Shown here piece by piece: positions 559 to 28,900 of a stretch of DNA of 64,000 nucleotides; within the stretch, counting starts at the first letter, position 1; each line of letters begins with the position of its first letter. This DNA comes from Ischnura elegans (Eukaryota; Arthropoda; Insecta; Odonata; Coenagrionidae): the NCBI RefSeq assembly GCF_921293095.1, contig NC_060252.1, positions 46,004,881 to 46,068,880 of the forward strand. Direction: 5' to 3'. A model generated the notes under the pieces. That model ran no database searches. It saw nothing but the letters and a program-made list of their open reading frames with translations, and was not told the origin of the DNA. A program made the position numbers and the translations under genes.

Positions 559-1074
559 TTATTTTGACGCCGATAGTAGGAGAAAACGCTGTCTTCTTGG
601 CTGGCAGTCGAATGTATGAGGAACAACGTTACTCTTTATTTTCATATTTCCTCCCTTGATTTTAAACATCATGCAATTTTCTATGTCCTTACGTAACTGA
701 AATTGAACAAGTGCCATAAATAATTCGAGTCCATCGTACCCATCGACAAACAAGTAGGTATCTCTAAGTTTTTATTCTAATGCGGCCGAATTATAGAAAA
801 ATCTCAGGTTCAAGTTATTCAGTCGATGAAATATGGAAATATTATTCATATTAGAGTTATCTTCGCGCACATAGCACACGGGTTTTGTCATTCCGTTTAT
901 TATACTCTTATTTTCCGTAACGCTCATCCCGTCGGACGGCATGCGTCGAGGCTTTTCTTTTAATTTCCTCCGTGGGAATGCTGACGAAATTTTTTTTGGG
1001 GTGTTATTGCACTGAGGAACAATGCACCATTTGTAGTTTTTCGTTATTTCAGCCATGTTCTCTTTTAAACGCAA
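559..1074 (-). pseudogene. THAP-domain protein remnant
   Basis: Two minus-strand reading segments look like the two ends of a THAP zinc finger of the kind found in mobile-element-derived insect proteins. Segment 1074-772 starts at a Met and has YKWCIVPQCNNT, giving the C-x4-C pair near the N-terminus. Segment 753-559 has DIENCMMFKIKGGNMKIK followed by VVPHTFDCQP, matching the end of such domains, where a [AV]VP-x-[IT]F motif is expected. The middle, with the W and C-x2-H residues, is poorly preserved and the frames are broken between 772 and 753. It sits directly beside the Transib-like insertion but is not part of it. Treated as a decayed gene; a spliced gene with a missing exon is less likely. 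Confidence 0.45.
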
Positions 1075-1152
1075 CGTGGCTCTTCCAAACCTGCATCTAC
1101 GACGTTACTTGGCTTGGATCTTGGACTCATACTGAATTATGACGAAACGGCG

Positions 1153-4100
1153 CACAGTGGTCCCAAATCGAAAAAAGCTGGCCAAAATTAATTACGCCGT
1201 TGTTATTATGTATATATTTGACCTAAATGTCCATTCTTATTGTTTTTGACCCGCTTATTCTGAATTTATAACTATTTTTTATGTATTTGCAATAATTTTA
1301 TCGCTATTTCACATTTTGTTTAAACAATTAATTTTTTTAACATTGGAATTTGAGATTATACTGGTGATAGTAAATTAAAATTATACATATCATAAAACTG
1401 AATTAGTTATTTAAAACATACATAAATGCATATAAAATGAATGCATTGTTTATTTTTGGACAAATTTTGAACAACTTATTTTGAATGAACCAAGAGAACA
1501 TTTTCTACTTTCTCATATGTTTGATCGTATTTGATACGAAAAATAAGTTAATATTAATTGGAAATTTATATTATAAGTATATTATTAATATTATTGTACT
1601 GCATTAATTGTTTAAAAATTATAATATCTAATTCTAATTAAGTAGACAATTTTATAGTTCCTTGTAACGTGCCAATGGATTTGGAAGCAATTTTAAACGG
1701 GGTTCCGTATTTCACAAGTTTCAACGGAGGCATTATTACAATCATTGAAATGTTATAAACAATATTTCATAACTCCTATAACTCAAGTTAACCGCCAAAT
1801 TTATTGATACGCTTGCAATAAGCTCTTTACGAAGTGAGGCATCAATTTAACGAGCACATGATTTGGTACGAAAAATTAAATGAGATTTTCCATTAATTTG
1901 GGCTTTTTTAATTATCAAAAAAATAAGTTAACATTTCTCCTTATCTTTCTCAGTCATTGTTACGAAAAAAATTTAAATACATTCATGATCACTATCCGAC
2001 AAATCCTCATCACAGTCGTCATCCACTCAATTCTTCCAGGATTAATAAACTCTTTACCTCGACTGGTAATTTAAGTAATTTCCTTCTTTGAGCCTTAGAA
2101 ATACTTGATATCATTGCATCTGAAGTTAGGAGTAATCTTTTAAACAGGTCTTCATTCGTTGCTATCCAGGAAAATTTCCTTGCATGGTGCTCCCTGAATC
2201 TTCTTATGTCCTTATTCCTCGCCTCCATTGCCTCCTCGGACAAGTGGACAATAGGAAGGGCAGCTTCTTTAGATGTCCGTCGGAGGAGCAAGTACTGATG
2301 TTTCGTGAAATTACCAGAAACGATCATGGAAAGGGCTTCTTCGTGGGAGATTTTACTTTGCCTCACATCCTTGGCTCTCCATTTTGATAACACTCGCCGC
2401 GCTCTTGAGAGAGTGGTTGTTGTCACCTCATTTATTATTTTCGCCACGAACTCATCACCTTTGCTTCGATAACTCATGGATGCTCTACTGGCGATGTGCT
2501 AGCTCTAAGATCCTCCGTTTTCCATCTCTAGGCCCTTTCACTGGACTTCTCAAATTGTTTAAATAAAGGTGGAGGAAATTTCAACTTCTCATTTAGGCAG
2601 TCAGCAAACTTTCTTCTAAAAAACCTGTCATTTCTTTTTCTTTCCTTCCACCGGCGAAGATAATTTGAGAGAAAAAACACTTCTCCGCAATTTTTTTAGG
2701 ATAACTATTGAATTAACGTCCTCATCTAACTCTAACTTGTTGCTCCAGCAATCCAATAAGTATTGGTTTTTAAACGATACGGACCCTCTTCCACTTTCAA
2801 GAAATTTTTCATGCATCTCAAGACGCGTGAAATTTTTCAGAGTTATCGAACTAAAACACTATGGGCACTCTTCTTCAACCCTACAAGTCTTCTTTAAAAA
2901 GTTCGAGGATACTCGACTTTTTCAAGACTCGATCATCACGCTTGAGGAAACTAACTTTCACGTCTTTCGTTTGGCAAAATCTGAGTAAAACTGAGTTTTG
3001 GCGAGAAAATTTCGGGCAAGCGATGTCTAGAAGTAATTTGGGTGTTCCACAGTGTGAGGTTCGCGATGCTATTATCTCCATTTTCTAGGAAATATCACAT
3101 TTGAAAGGTGAAAAGGCTTACTCCGTTCATCCCCGGTGGCCAAAGTGCAATTCATAACAAGTGTATAGAGAGCGGTGGTTGTGTTTTCCCGATGGGCGCA
3201 ATCAATAGCCTAGGCCTTTTCGGCCGTCGTTTGCCCTGCATGTGGTTGAGGAGGCCGCTAAGGAGGCGACAGAGGGACAATGTGCAGCGTGAGGGCGAAA
3301 ACTAACCCGTCTAACGGAAGGAAAGGGTGGAATAGCATTTGAGGGATTCTTTTTTGTTTTGAATGCATTCATGTTTTTGAGGATTACTATAAGCACAGCT
3401 GCGTACTTTCGTTCCATAAATATATCCTTCCGCTCGAGTCCTTAAGCAATTTTTATGAGAGCATGGGCACGCGTAAATAAAAGGTAAGGTCAAATGGAAA
3501 CTATTAATGATAAAACGTTCTACGTATGACAAGAGATGTTTATTCGTAGGGTAAATATTTTTTGTAGAAATAAAATATCCAACAATGTTGAATAACACCC
3601 ATAAATACTGGATTTCCTCGAGCCCTACCATGCGCCAGCCAGGCCGCCGCCCGCGTCAGCGCATTGCATCATTATAGTTAAATCAATGCTGAGGTCGGAG
3701 TAGCAACTAGTAGCAAAAATTTTCTTCACTACTGCGTTGCATATACTTTTCCCTTTGTATTGGTGCAAAAGACACCGTGCATTCACGTGCCTTTCTAAAC
3801 GATATTGTACATTTTATTTGAAAATTCGGGTAAAAAACACTAAAAGTTACAAAATATATATAAAATATTAAACATAGTAAAATCCGAATAAAATTTATGT
3901 ACCACTATGTAATAATGTTTATATTTGTAGTTAAAAATATTTTTGGCCAAATATATCGCGTAAAGGTTGTCCTGCATGACGCTGAACTTCCTCAAAATCG
4001 ACCGATTTCACGCAACTGTGATTTTTACGGTGAATGCTCCATGTTTGACGGATCACTGCAGCCGCTCTGATGAACAAAAATACTAACTTAGTAGTGTATT

Positions 4101-4205
4101 TTGTAGACCATATCCTGTAGAATCCGAAAATAAGGTTCAAAAATTCCTTGAAAATTTTCGAAAATATGACTTTTGGCCAGCTTTTTTCGATTTGGGACCA
4201 CTGTG
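1153..4205 (-). mobile_element. Transib-like DNA transposon, internally deleted
   Basis: The ends are inverted: 1153 begins CACAGTGGTCCCAAATCG, then about 17 more matching bases to GGCCAAAA, and the complement ends at 4205. Each end is flanked by the pentamer CGGCG (1148-1152 and 4206-4210), a perfect 5-bp target duplication. CACWRTG ends and GC-rich 5-bp duplications of the CGNCG type are the hallmarks of Transib elements, the transposon lineage related to RAG1. The element is 3053 bp. Decayed transposase pieces lie on the minus strand between about 3081 and 1973; the rest is AT-rich and non-coding. The catalytic middle of the transposase is missing, so this copy should be non-autonomous. 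Confidence 0.78.
1973..3081 (-). pseudogene. Transib/RAG1-like transposase remnant, N- and C-terminal parts joined
   Basis: Minus-strand pieces read in order: 3081-2881 (66 codons, Met start), 2816-2628, a piece near 2600-2540 with LNEKLKFPPPL, and the longest, 2477-2019 (152 codons). The last contains KISHEEALSMIVSGNFTKHQ (N-terminal type region), then abruptly HLSEEAMEARNKDIRRFR, ARKFSW and TNEDLF. The second block resembles the C-terminal end of RAG1/Transib cores, where the third catalytic acid lies in an E-x(2-3)-NK-x3-RRFR context; Glu85 of this ORF is the candidate. About 350-400 residues expected in between, carrying the two catalytic Asp, are absent; the joint is near codons 71-77 (about 2250-2265). 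A one-base frame slip near 2020 leads into an acidic tail ending at 1973-1975. Other frameshifts occur upstream, so it is a pseudogene. Confidence 0.65.
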
Positions 4206-4380
4206 CGGCGTAAGATTAGTGGGGGCGGTATTTATTAGCCCGCGAAATTAGTGAGACTTTTGGGAGTCATTTTCTAGTGTATAAACTGAATTTTAAGCGG
4301 AAAAAAATGTATTGCGGTACTAAGTATTTACTGTAGTATATCAGCACACTGTCTACAAAAAGTATGCAATTTCCCTATTA

Positions 4381-7879: not shown

Positions 7880-10800
7880 GGATATCAATAGGATTGCGGA
7901 TTTTACAGTACAGATGTCAGCAGAGTCTAATGTACGATTCGATTAGTATAGCAAATACGCAAATTGGCATAACTTGATAAGTATATACGTTGGACCAATG
8001 AAACTTGGTAAACAGGTACATCTTGGTATTCCTCACGATACTCTATGGTAGTATGTTTTGTATTCAGTCTCACGTTCGATATATATCGAATCTACTTTTT
8101 CTTAAAATATGTCGAATTGCTATAACATATAGGATTTTACATCTAGGGACATAGTTGACCAGGAATTTTAAAGAAGTTACCCATACACTGGATGTTAAAC
8201 CAATAGCATTGCGGATTTTACAGTACAGATATCAGTATGATCGAAAAATCGATTCAATTATTATAGCAAATACACAAATTGGTATAACTTGAAAAGTATA
8301 CCCGTTGGACCAATGAAATTTGGCAAATGTGCACATCTTGGTATTCTTCACAATGCCCAAAAGAAATATGTTTTGTATGTTGTCTAACTTGCGATATATA
8401 TCGAATATGCTTTTTCTTCAAATATATCGAACTGCTATAACAAATAGGATATTACATCCAAGGGCATAGTTGACCAGGTTTTATATAGTAGATACCCATA
8501 GACAGAAAGTTAAACCAATAGCATTTCGGATTTTACAGTACAGATGTCAGTAGGATCGAAAAATCGATTCGATTATTATAGCAAATACGTAAATTGGCAT
8601 TACTTCAATACTATATACGCTGGACCAATGAAATTTCGTGAATGGGTAAATCCTGGTATTCCTCACAATGCACAATGGAAATATGTTTTGTATGTAGTCT
8701 CACGTTCGATATATATCGAATCTACTTTTTCTTAAAAGATATCGAATTGCTATGACCTATAGGATTTTACATCTAGGGACATAGTTGACCAGGGATTTTA
8801 AAGAAGTTACCCATACACTGGATTTTAAACCAATAGCATTGCGGATTTTACGGTACAGATGTCAGTATGATCGAAAAATCGATTCAATTATTATAGCAAA
8901 TACACAAATTGGTATAACTTAAAAAGTATACCCGTTGGACCAATGAAATTTGGCGATTGGTCACATCTTGGTATTCCTTACGATGCCCAACAGAAATATG
9001 TTTTGTATGCAGTCTAACGTGCGATATATATCGAATATGCTTTTTCTTCAAATATATCGAACTGCTATAAAAAATAGGATTTTGCATCCAAGGGCATAGT
9101 TGACCAGGTATTATATAGTAGATACCCATAGACAGAAAGTTAAACCAATAGCATTTCGGATTTTACAGTACAGATGTCAGTATGATCGAAAAATTGATTC
9201 GATTATTATAGCAAATACGTAAATTGGCATAACTTCAATACTATATCCGCTGGACCAATGAAATTTCGTGAATGGGTATATCCTGCTATTCCTCACAATG
9301 CCCAATGGAAATATGTTTTGTATATAGTCTCACGTTCGATATATATCGAATCTACTTTTTCTTCAAATATATCGAATTGCTATAACATATAGGATTTTAC
9401 ATCCAAGGGCATAGTTGACCAGGAACTATATAGTAGGTGACCATAGACTGGAAATTAAATAAATATCGTTGCGGATTTTACAGTACAGATGTCAGTATGA
9501 TCGAAAAATTGATTCGATTATTATAGCAAATACGTAAATTGGCATAACTTCAATACTATATCCGCTGGACCAATGAAATTTCGTGAATGGGTATATCCTG
9601 CTATTCCTCACAATGCCCAATGGAAATATGTTTTGTATATAGTCTCACGTTCGATATATATCGAATCTACTTTTTCTTCAAATATATCGAATTGCTATAA
9701 CATATAGGATTTTACATCCAAGGGCATAGTTGACCAGGAACTATATAGTAGGTGACCATAGACTGGAAATTAAATAAATATCGTTGCGGATTTTACAGTA
9801 CAGATGTCAGTATATTCGAAAGATCGATACGATAATTATAGCAAATACGCAAATTGGCATAACTTGATTGCTATATAAGTTGGACCAAAGAAATTTTGGG
9901 AATTGGTATATCATGATATTTCTCACAATGCCCAATAGAAATATGTTTTGTATATGGTCTCACATGGGATATATATCGAATCTTCATTTTCCAAATTATA
10001 TCGATTTGCCTTAACATTTAGGATTTTACATCCACAGTCATTGTTGACCAGGAATTATAGAGTAGATGACTATTAACTGGAATTATAATATACAGCGTTG
10101 CGGATTTTACAGTGCAGATGGCAGTTTAATCGATAGATCGAATCGATTATTGTAGCAAATATGCAAATTGGCATAATTTGAATAGTATATGCGTTGGACC
10201 AATGAAATTTGGTGAATGGGTACACATTGGTATTCCTCACAATGCCCAATGGGAAGATTTTTTGTATGTAGTCTCTCATTCGATATATATCGAATATACT
10301 TTTTCTTAAAATATATGGAATTGTTATAACACATCGGAATTTACATCAATGGGCAAAGTTGACCAGGAATTATATGGTGAATGGCCATGGACCGGAATTA
10401 AAATCAAACGCATTGCGAAATCTACATTACAGATGCAGTATAATCGAATGATCGAATCGATTATTATAGAAAATACGCAAAATTGCATAACTTGATTCTT
10501 ATATCCTTTGGAGCAATGAAATTTGGTGAATGTGTACATCCTGATACTCTTCACAAAGCCCAATCGAATATGTTTTTCATTTACCGTCTCATTAGATGTA
10601 TATCGATTCAGCGTTTTCTTAAAATATATATTGAATTGCTATAACATGCAGGATTTTACATCCGCGGGCGTATTTGACCATGAAATATAGAGTAGATGAC
10701 CTAACGGGAAGATAAATCAATAGGATTGCGAATTTATATTTTCACATGTGAGTATACTTGACAATTCGTTATGATTATGGTAGCAAATATGCTAATTACC

Positions 10801-25900: not shown

Positions 25901-28900
25901 AGGAAAGCGATGACACGGATGAGGAGGAAAATATTTCCCCTGGTGATAACGGCAGAGACTCTGATGAAGCTAGGTCTGATGGTGACGTGGAAGAACCTAC
26001 TACTGCTGAAGATTGTGATATTGATGGTGAGAATAATTATTTTTTTGGAAAAGTTGATGAATCTTGCAAGTGGAAATAAACTTCTTTTTGCGGTGCTACA
26101 AAGATCAAGCGCAAAAACATTATGAAAACCCTACCAAGGACAAAACTCTGTGCAAGAAATACTCCTGATAAGGCTGCGGCTTTTCGAAAATGTATAGATA
26201 TAGACATTGATGAAATTGTGATGCAAACAAACGAGTAAATTCAAAATAAAATTGCTCTTGTCCACTATTCAAGGGATAGGGATTGTAACGAAACGACAAG
26301 AACAGAATTTATGGCTGTGCTAAGTATACTTTTTCTAATTGGCATGAAAAAAGGTTTTCATGCAAATTCTTTACACTTGTTGAGTGAAGATGGATCAGGA
26401 ATGCAAATTCTAAGGGCAGCTATGAGTTACAAGCGATTTTTGTTTATTTTGCGATCAGTAAAATTTGACGACAGAGCAAGTAGGGATTTCCGAAAACAAA
26501 CAGATAAATTAGCTGCAATCCGAACAATAATAAACTTGTTCATAGGAAATTGCCTAAAACATATAAAATGAGTGAATTTGTGCAATTGACGAAATGCTGC
26601 AACCATTTAGATGCCGTTGAAGTTTCATTCAATATATACCGAGCAAACCCGCGAAATACGGGATAAAGTTTTGTGCTATGTGTGATGCCAAAACATTCTT
26701 CACCAGTAATCTCGAAGTGTATTGCGGGAAGCAGATGAATGTGTTAGTGTCAAAGTGTGATATTTAGTGTCAAACTCACCAGTAGACGTTGTCAAGAGGC
26801 TGGTAAGATCAATTGAGGCAACTAATCGTAATCTTACCACAGATAACTGGTATACTAGTTATCCGCTTGTCAAGCATCTCCTCAGAAAAAAAATTACAAC
26901 CATTGGCACGCTGAAAAAAAAAAAAGAGATTTTCTGCCAGAATTTTTGCCAAACAAGACGTGCGCTGTAGGATCATCTCTCTACGGGTTTCAGAAAGACA
27001 TTACCCTTCTATCATATGTTACAAAGAAGAACAAGGCGGTGTTGTTGCTTTCAGCAATGCATGATGAGGGGATCACAGATGAAGGTTCAAATAAACCATG
27101 TATTATATTAGATTACGATGCAACGAAAACAGGTGTCGACACGGCTGACCAAATGTGTTTTATGTATTCTGTGTCCAGAATTACGAAAAGGTGGCCTTCA
27201 GTTTTATTTTATAGATTTTTGGACATCGCAGGAATCAATGCTCACATATTATATGGGGCAAACAATCCTACAAATGAACATTACAGGAGGACATTCCTGA
27301 AAACCTTATCGTACACATTGATGAATGCACACTTGAAAAACAGGTCAAACATATTATCTCTACCAGCTGACATTAAAATATTCTTGTCAAGTTATCAAAA
27401 TGAAGACTTGCAAGTTGAAGAGGTGAGCGAGACAGCAAGCAAGAAACGCGGAAAGTGCATATTGTGTGGCCGTGCAAAGAACATCTCAACGACAATCAAA
27501 TATGGGAGGTGTAATAACTTTTCTTGCCGAAAGCACTGTAAAACAGTTACTACCTGAAATAAGTGTACATAAATGACGTGAAAAACCTTAAGACATAAAA
27601 ACTGAGTTTTAGGCATTGCTTTAAAAAATATGATAAAAAATTTTGAATTATAAAAGTGTTTAAGAATCTGTACTATATGTCTAAATTATGTAAAGTTCTA
27701 TTAAAAAACAAGGTAATGAATGTACGCTTCTTAATTCGATTTTTTGTAATTAATATCAGCGGAAAACCAAGTGTTGCACTGAGTGCCACGAGCTCCCGCT
27801 AGTGTCAGAGAATATGGTGCGCCTGCTGGAGGGTTAAGGAAGGGAGCTTTTCAATTTTCTTATAGATATCCTCCCCCACAACTAACATAGACTCAATAGT
27901 ATGTAATACAATTTTTATTCCTATGACAGTCTAATTATTACTTTTACAGTCCTAAAATCAGTAATACTATTATTTATAACATAATTTGATGACCATAAGT
28001 GCCTTTCTAAAAGTAGAAGAGGGAATCTAACCTGAAATAGCATCTGAATCATTATATCAGTGACCAACTCCATCATTTATCACTCTTCAGTATGCAGGTG
28101 ACCCAACAAAATCAAGACGAGATGTCATTCACTGGTCACTGTGCATTCCAGCTTCATGCTCCCCAGCTTCAGTAGAAGATGCCCTAGTGCAAGCAATGAA
28201 TTGGGTTAATGAAGTTTATGGAAAGAGTTTGAATATTAAAGTAAGAATTCCAGAGAGGATGTGCATCACAAATAGAAATGACGAATTTCTCAATGCATAT
28301 GATATAACTTTCAGGTAAGTTGAATTCTCAATCTTCAATTACACACCATCTCATGTGATATTTCAAAGAAATCTGAAAACCTTATAACGAAAGATGAAAC
28401 AAATGATGCCTCATCCATTAATGATAACACCCATTGTGCCAAAAGGTTTGACAATGCAATTCCAATTTAATGAATGTGCATTGTATCCAATGATTTTTGT
28501 TTTATTTCAGTGTTTTCTTGACAACTTTATCATTTACAGTCATTGCTGCAACTGCATACGATCTCAACACTATGACTGATAACGAAGAAAATGCAGGCAC
28601 TAAAACAGGTAAAAAAACACTGATAAGGAAAACCTTTTCATTAAATATTATCTTCGATGATGATCACTGATGAAATAATATGAAGGGAAAAAATTAACCC
28701 TGGTATATTATCACTTTTGGGAGAAACAGGTATTTTGCATCTTCAAAGTAGAAGATTTAAAAATATCATATTAAATTAAATTCATATATTTTAAAAACGT
28801 AGAAAGAATAAGTTGACTACGTCAAATACATAAAACATTTGTTATTGATGATTGGTTTCCAGTTAATTTTGTCTTGACTCATATTTGGTGGACAACAGTT

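Follow-up and report, generated by a model that had tools for sequence, protein, structure and literature searches.

A high-copy transposon family with CACAGTG ends and a fused Transib transposase frame in the genome of Ischnura elegans

The element and its ends

The window, by which we mean the whole stretch of 64,000 nucleotides that was analysed (G000:C7:46004881-46068880, within a searched genome of 1.72 Gb), harbours at positions 1153-4205 a complete DNA transposon that opens with CACAGTG (1153-1159) and closes with CACTGTG (4199-4205). The first 35 bp at its two ends form a perfect inverted repeat, and a comparison in which the flanks are taken in gives 46 bp at 93%. The terminal features are the following.

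1148-1152, no strand: left target-site duplication CGGCG (read in the sequence; a single 5 bp in two related empty sites)
1153-1187, plus strand: left terminal inverted repeat, 35 bp, starting with CACAGTG (end comparison)
1153-1159, plus strand: terminal heptamer CACAGTG, matching the RSS consensus heptamer at every base (sequence; PMC8289069, in excerpt)
4171-4205, minus strand: right terminal inverted repeat, 35 bp (end comparison)
4199-4205, minus strand: terminal heptamer CACAGTG, CACTGTG on the plus strand (sequence)
4206-4210, no strand: right target-site duplication CGGCG (sequence; related empty sites)

Inverted ends starting with CACAGTG and flanked on both sides by CGGCG had been described in a first-pass annotation of this DNA; their positions are verified here, and copies of the element recur throughout the genome. 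An 18-base end pattern, allowing up to three mismatches, is found three times in the window, namely at both ends exactly and at one further place with three mismatches, versus a mean of 0.43 in shuffled sequences, where 1 of 100 reached three. The genome-wide recurrence of the element together with matching ends is a stronger argument against chance than these shuffles.

Elsewhere in the window, positions 7886-10735 consist of 9.1 tandem copies of a 315-bp unit, and a 232-aa frame at 26859-27557 on the plus strand matches Pfam DDE_Tnp_1_7 (E 2.7e-13) and is presumably a piggyBac-like remnant.

Copies across the genome

A genome search with positions 1148-4210 located the element at 39 other places with 96-99% identity, nearly always at full length, and as one more copy split in two pieces, among the best 40 of 1929 candidates scored. 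A 26-base pattern consisting of CACNNTG and 19 fixed bases, in which heptamer bases 4 and 5 are free and which is blind to change in the other five, matches 868 ends (431 forward, 437 reverse), compared with none when the pattern is read backwards. Among the 100 of these 868 ends that were listed, 99 carry CACAGTG and one CACGGTG. Neighbouring ends among these 100 form 39 facing pairs at distances of up to 12 kb, and 33 of the pairs span 2.9-3.3 kb.

Full copies numbering 39, the window copy among them, were cut from the fetched loci, with L076 and L077 (a single end each) left out; the sample is biased towards the CGGCG flank, since the ranking query contained CGGCG. The left heptamer is CACAGTG in 38 of 39 copies and CACAGGG in one, and the right heptamer is CACAGTG in all 39, so that the presence of this heptamer in other copies, on which the first-pass annotation depended, extends to 77 of 78 ends. 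Transib ends reportedly share the consensus CACWRTG, and 77 of the 78 ends counted here fit the rule CAC...TG, with CACAGGG as the exception.

Divergence from the family majority averages 0.94% over the 39 copies (range 0.33-2.66%), with 558 transitions and 564 transversions. The first 35 bp at both ends hold 4 mismatches in 2730 aligned bases, against 0.94% for the whole element, a low variation that is due in part to a filter rejecting ends with more than four mismatches in a 28-base core. Judging from its sequences, the family is young and has recently multiplied.

A protein search yielded 30 loci, 13 of which lie by coordinates outside the first copy set. Ten of these 13 have a CACAGTG end, with a CGNCG flank in seven of the ten; L021 and L022 are without CACAG, and L018 shows no end. 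In the left ends of L021 and L022 CACAG is missing and TGGTCCC remains, and over 195 bp the left flank of L022 and the right flank of L067 are 94% alike. L062 (G000:C3:61942018-61948686) holds two family copies in the same orientation, separated by 17 bp, and CGGCG borders each copy at both ends. Identical 200-bp flanks are found on both sides of L051 and L060, and L027 and L065 have the compared 80 bp of left flank in common; L051/L060, and L027 with L028 and L065, look like segmental duplications rather than separate insertions.

Target duplications and insertion sites

The target duplication is a perfect 5 bp in 38 of the 39 copies, the length expected from the window copy, and has the form CGNCG in 32 of those 38. 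By letters, CGCCG occurs 16 times, CGGCG 13 times, CGACG three times and six others once each, and L054 bears an imperfect duplication (CATCG/CGTCG); with their identical flanks, L051 and L060 count as one insertion.

When the window flanks were joined with one CGGCG and used as a query, 40 of 40 rows crossed the joint, starting at query base 1-4 and ending at 368-377 (best 40 of 864). The element is therefore inserted in a repeat whose length is 370 bp or more. Two related empty sites that were inspected run ungapped through the joint, with CGGCG in one and CAGCG in the other; they hold the 5 bp only once, and the repeated CGGCG is therefore a 5-bp target duplication and not an extension of the inverted repeat. 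The dispersed repeat surrounding the element (window 953-1152 and 4211-4380) has empty relatives that are 90-94% identical (40 of 40 scored). Another dispersed repeat is represented by L040, L049, L052, L059 and L072, where copies in both orientations apparently occupy the same CGNCG site, a target hot spot; the joined flanks of L072 are run through at the joint by 40 of 40 scored places.

The fused transposase frame

Coding capacity related to a transposase was found on the minus strand.

2019-2498, minus strand: 159-aa frame with its stop, an internally deleted Transib transposase (matches to 6pqn and L078:1373-3022)
2271-2498, minus strand: its N-terminal part, aa 1-76 (L078 from residue 31, E 3e-4; L079; 6pqn 8-35)
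2022-2270, minus strand: its C-terminal part, aa 77-159 (6pqn 403-460; L078 protein 450-525)
2223-2225, minus strand: codon of the retained catalytic glutamate, aa 92, equivalent to HzTransib E436 (6pqn alignment)

The frame aligns with residues 403-460 of PDB entry 6pqn (HzTransib) at E 2.3e-16, and a second, very weak piece (5.3 bits) covers residues 8-35. A PDB search with the N-terminal 77 aa alone found no Transib chain at E <=10, for which reason the assignment of this part relies on the genome relatives L078 and L079. Specifically, the protein of L078, the nearer of these two full-length relatives examined, is matched over residues 450-525 (52.6% over 76 aa, E 5e-17) and, in the same frame, more weakly from residue 31 (27.8%, E 3e-4), and the alignment of L079, a third Transib, starts at aa 3 of the window frame. 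These alignments therefore identify the frame as an in-frame fusion of the beginning and the end of a transposase, with about 370-390 residues missing between them (6pqn residues about 36-402).

The catalytic residues of HzTransib are D126, D225 and E436 (PMC6941560, in excerpt), corresponding to D109, D208 and E419 of the 6pqn chain by a numbering offset of 17 derived from the two aspartates. Both aspartates fall in the deleted stretch, and the glutamate is kept as aa 92 (chain 419). The intact DDE transposase of an autonomous Transib is thus absent, and because the core with both catalytic aspartates is missing the element is a non-autonomous internal-deletion derivative. The C-terminal motif of RAG1/Transib type noted in the first-pass annotation is indeed real, as the 6pqn match attests, and its matches to HzTransib and L078 place the frame with Transib rather than with another superfamily; the loss of the catalytic core had escaped that annotation. 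In Pfam, nine frames of the element and one adjacent frame gave only sub-threshold matches to CaMBD (E 0.0031) and IBR (E 0.031), and the 159-aa remnant had no Pfam match, RAG1 included.

Selection on the fused frame

Among the 39 copies the fused frame is open in 32 and interrupted in seven, either by a stop or by a deletion that shifts the frame (insertions uncounted), and it is without a stop in most of the protein-search rows listed. The KP derivative of the P element is a regulator or repressor of the full transposase, and the fused N+C protein might similarly be a maintained regulator, for instance a repressor of the full transposase, its frame being open in most copies for that reason. 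The frame does hold fewer distinct changes, 74, than the 109.5 predicted from the remainder of the element (Poisson p 0.0002), and among 477-bp windows across the element, which hold 71-119 changes, the dip lies mainly over the frame. Broken down by class, however, observed and expected changes are 14 versus 26.7 silent, 55 versus 76.7 missense and 5 versus 6.2 nonsense; the reduction is at least as strong for silent as for missense changes and hardly touches nonsense changes, so that the dip is not taken as protein constraint. Set against the neutral split derived from the mutation spectrum outside the frame (18.0 silent, 51.8 missense, 4.2 nonsense), the observed 14, 55 and 5 give a missense-to-silent ratio of 1.37 relative to expectation. 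The split is neutral and shows no amino-acid constraint, and at a mean divergence of 0.94% open frames are expected even without selection. A maintained regulator is therefore quite improbable.

Other Transib elements in the genome

At L078:1373-3022 (G000:C5:56107772-56109421) lies an open 550-aa Transib transposase frame, whose residues 37-507 align with 6pqn (chain 7-461) over 471 residues at E 7e-117 and which holds all three catalytic residues (D142, D255 and E465, counted from the motif positions). The same protein matches Pfam RAG1 at E 1e-8 and RAG1 chains at 3e-6 or weaker. A Pfam RAG1 search of the genome gave 12 weak matches, L078 among these and none above the cut-off. These values bear on whether the window element could be a RAG-like (RAG1L-RAG2L) transposon instead of a Transib, given that RAGL ends are also heptamer-like and accompanied by a 5-bp duplication (PMC7204232, in excerpt). 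Such an affiliation is extremely improbable: the fused frame matches HzTransib strongly and lacks a Pfam RAG1 match, its relative L078 is likewise far closer to HzTransib than to RAG1 chains, and this kinship of the transposase speaks for Transib over RAGL. Pfam RAG2 families were matched by none of the nine element frames, a count that applies to the scanned frames of a deletion form, other short frames lying outside it.

The L078 protein has at least 88 matches in the genome, several of them open over more than 500 aa without stops. Another Transib is present in three copies with 691-aa stop-free frames and similar scores (G000:C7:113932851, C11:75943332, C1:12574568), and has perhaps been recently active.

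The right end of L078, CACAGTGGTTCCCAGACGATGC, with CGGCG outside at about L078:3530, was found only through its likeness to the window end; self-comparison of L078 and L079 yielded no convincing inverted ends. The end CACNNTGGTTCCCAGACGATGC occurs with up to two mismatches at 33 places, with the heptamer CACAGTG at 25, CACAATG at three, CACCGTG at two and an alteration within CAC at three. Eleven of the 33, all with CACAGTG, sit 0.37-0.55 kb past the C-terminal end of transposase matches, on C1 (twice), C3 (twice), C4, C5, C7, C10, C11:89.9, C15 and C19 by coordinates. Ten of the eleven belong to the L078 family, with 74-100% identity at the C-terminal end, and the eleventh stands at 64%; the L078-family piece at C11:34.4 ends before the C-terminus, and no such end is found there. 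The flanks of the two right ends inspected in this second family are CGGCG (C5) and CGTCG (C4). As far as these comparisons of sequence tell, the exact heptamer CACAGTG is common to at least two families of the genome, one of them coding, and relatives with other heptamers occur too.

That these families make up a still active Transib system, with at least two families sharing the exact RSS consensus heptamer, is unlikely on present evidence. If it were true, a living transposase such as the 550-aa protein of L078 would cleave ends occurring in nature that might be recognised by vertebrate RAG too, allowing a direct test of how far RSS recognition predates RAG.

Searches for an autonomous partner with L078 as the query gave none tied to the window family (best 79 of 5340 candidates), and a chimeric query recovered no recognisable full-length parent (best 80 of 6052 candidates); neither search is exhaustive, since known deleted copies are absent from either list. 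On C1 and the first 47 Mb of C2, all 11 transposase places are more than 3 kb away from any pair of family ends, as judged over 100 of the 868 ends and over scored candidates. An unpaired family end at C1:157445126 is about 7 kb from a transposase match at C1:157451848.

Likeness of the ends to recombination signals

An RSS carries a nonamer 12 or 23 bp from its heptamer, and neither end of the element has one. At exactly 12 bp both ends match the nonamer at 4 of 9 positions, the best near 12 being 6 of 9 with a spacer of 11; at exactly 23 bp the matches are 3 of 9 and 4 of 9, and near 23, with a spacer of 22, they are 5 of 9 on the left and 6 of 9 on the right. Shuffles of the left end reach at least 6 of 9 in 5.4% and 5.8% of cases in two spacer brackets. 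The RSS likeness of the window ends is confined to the heptamer.

The identity of this heptamer with the consensus CACAGTG (PMC8289069, in excerpt), and the reported activity of HzTransib with mouse RAG2 on mouse RSSs (PMC8355894, in excerpt), might suggest a genuine RSS homologue in which heptamer and nonamer both function and which vertebrate RAG would cut as an RSS. With nonamer matches near 12 and 23 bp at the chance level of the shuffles, and with ends that are symmetric, this is highly improbable. Moreover, excerpts of the literature describe some Transib ends with heptamer and nonamer identical to the consensus (PMC6941560), state consensus-identical ends also for a few elements with 12/23 asymmetry (PMC8355894), and assign symmetric ends to most Transib families (PMC8289069). 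Heptamer identity is therefore not new. Being family-wide and already published, and coming with neither nonamer nor 12/23 spacing, it adds little on the origin of V(D)J recombination.

Proposed origin and mobilisation

The element is almost certainly a non-autonomous DNA transposon of the Transib superfamily, with ends presumably bound by a transposase made elsewhere in the genome. Both a homologous transposase (E 2.3e-16 for the remnant and 7e-117 for L078, against 6pqn) and a GC-rich 5-bp duplication (38 of 39 perfect, 32 of 38 CGNCG) are found, as in Transib. In HzTransib cleavage the flank is closed as a hairpin and the element is left blunt-ended, after which it inserts with a 5-bp stagger (PMC6941560, in excerpt). 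By analogy, a Transib transposase from elsewhere in the genome would bind the 35-bp ends and nick 5' of CACAGTG, producing hairpins on the flanks and blunt element ends as reported for HzTransib; the element would then insert at a GC-rich site with a 5-bp stagger, fill-in of which would create the duplication. The fused frame would be a leftover without catalytic ability. Since the searches described above recovered no autonomous element sharing the inverted repeat, among the candidates scored, we infer both the source of the transposase and the mobilisation of the element in trans.

Comparison with known systems

Transib is the transposon group that gave vertebrates RAG1. To this group the window adds a well-defined, recent, high-copy non-autonomous family. 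Its ends and target preference are known from 39 full copies, and open Transib transposase frames are present in the same genome, which makes the family a convenient source of natural substrates for biochemical work on Transib. The current view of how Transib relates to V(D)J recombination is left unchanged, and the excerpted text of PMC3442997 and PMC9435367 holds no content altering the assessment of the window family.

With vertebrate 12- and 23-RSSs the window ends share the heptamer CACAGTG (consensus in PMC8289069, in excerpt); unlike them they have no nonamer at 12 or 23 bp, are both alike, and are borne by a transposon. HzTransib of Helicoverpa zea (6pqn) belongs to the same superfamily and resembles the element in the C-terminal transposase sequence. 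Its 5-bp GC-rich duplication (GCTCG) and its length of 3518 bp are both similar to those of the window element (PMC1852546, in excerpt), and heptamer-like symmetric ends are common to both, those of HzTransib being known by description (PMC8289069, in excerpt). HzTransib encodes a whole transposase, whereas here the core and both catalytic aspartates are deleted.

The L078 family of the same genome is alike in its CACAGTG end, its CGNCG flank (two right ends) and its Transib transposase. It differs in coding a 550-aa frame with three catalytic residues, where that of the window family is deleted, and in its end sequence from base 10 on. About 10 transposase-bearing places were seen for the L078 family versus 868 ends for the window family. 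Autonomous Transibs typically occur in one or at most a few copies (PMC4411706, in excerpt), a pattern that the high copy number of a deleted form would fit.
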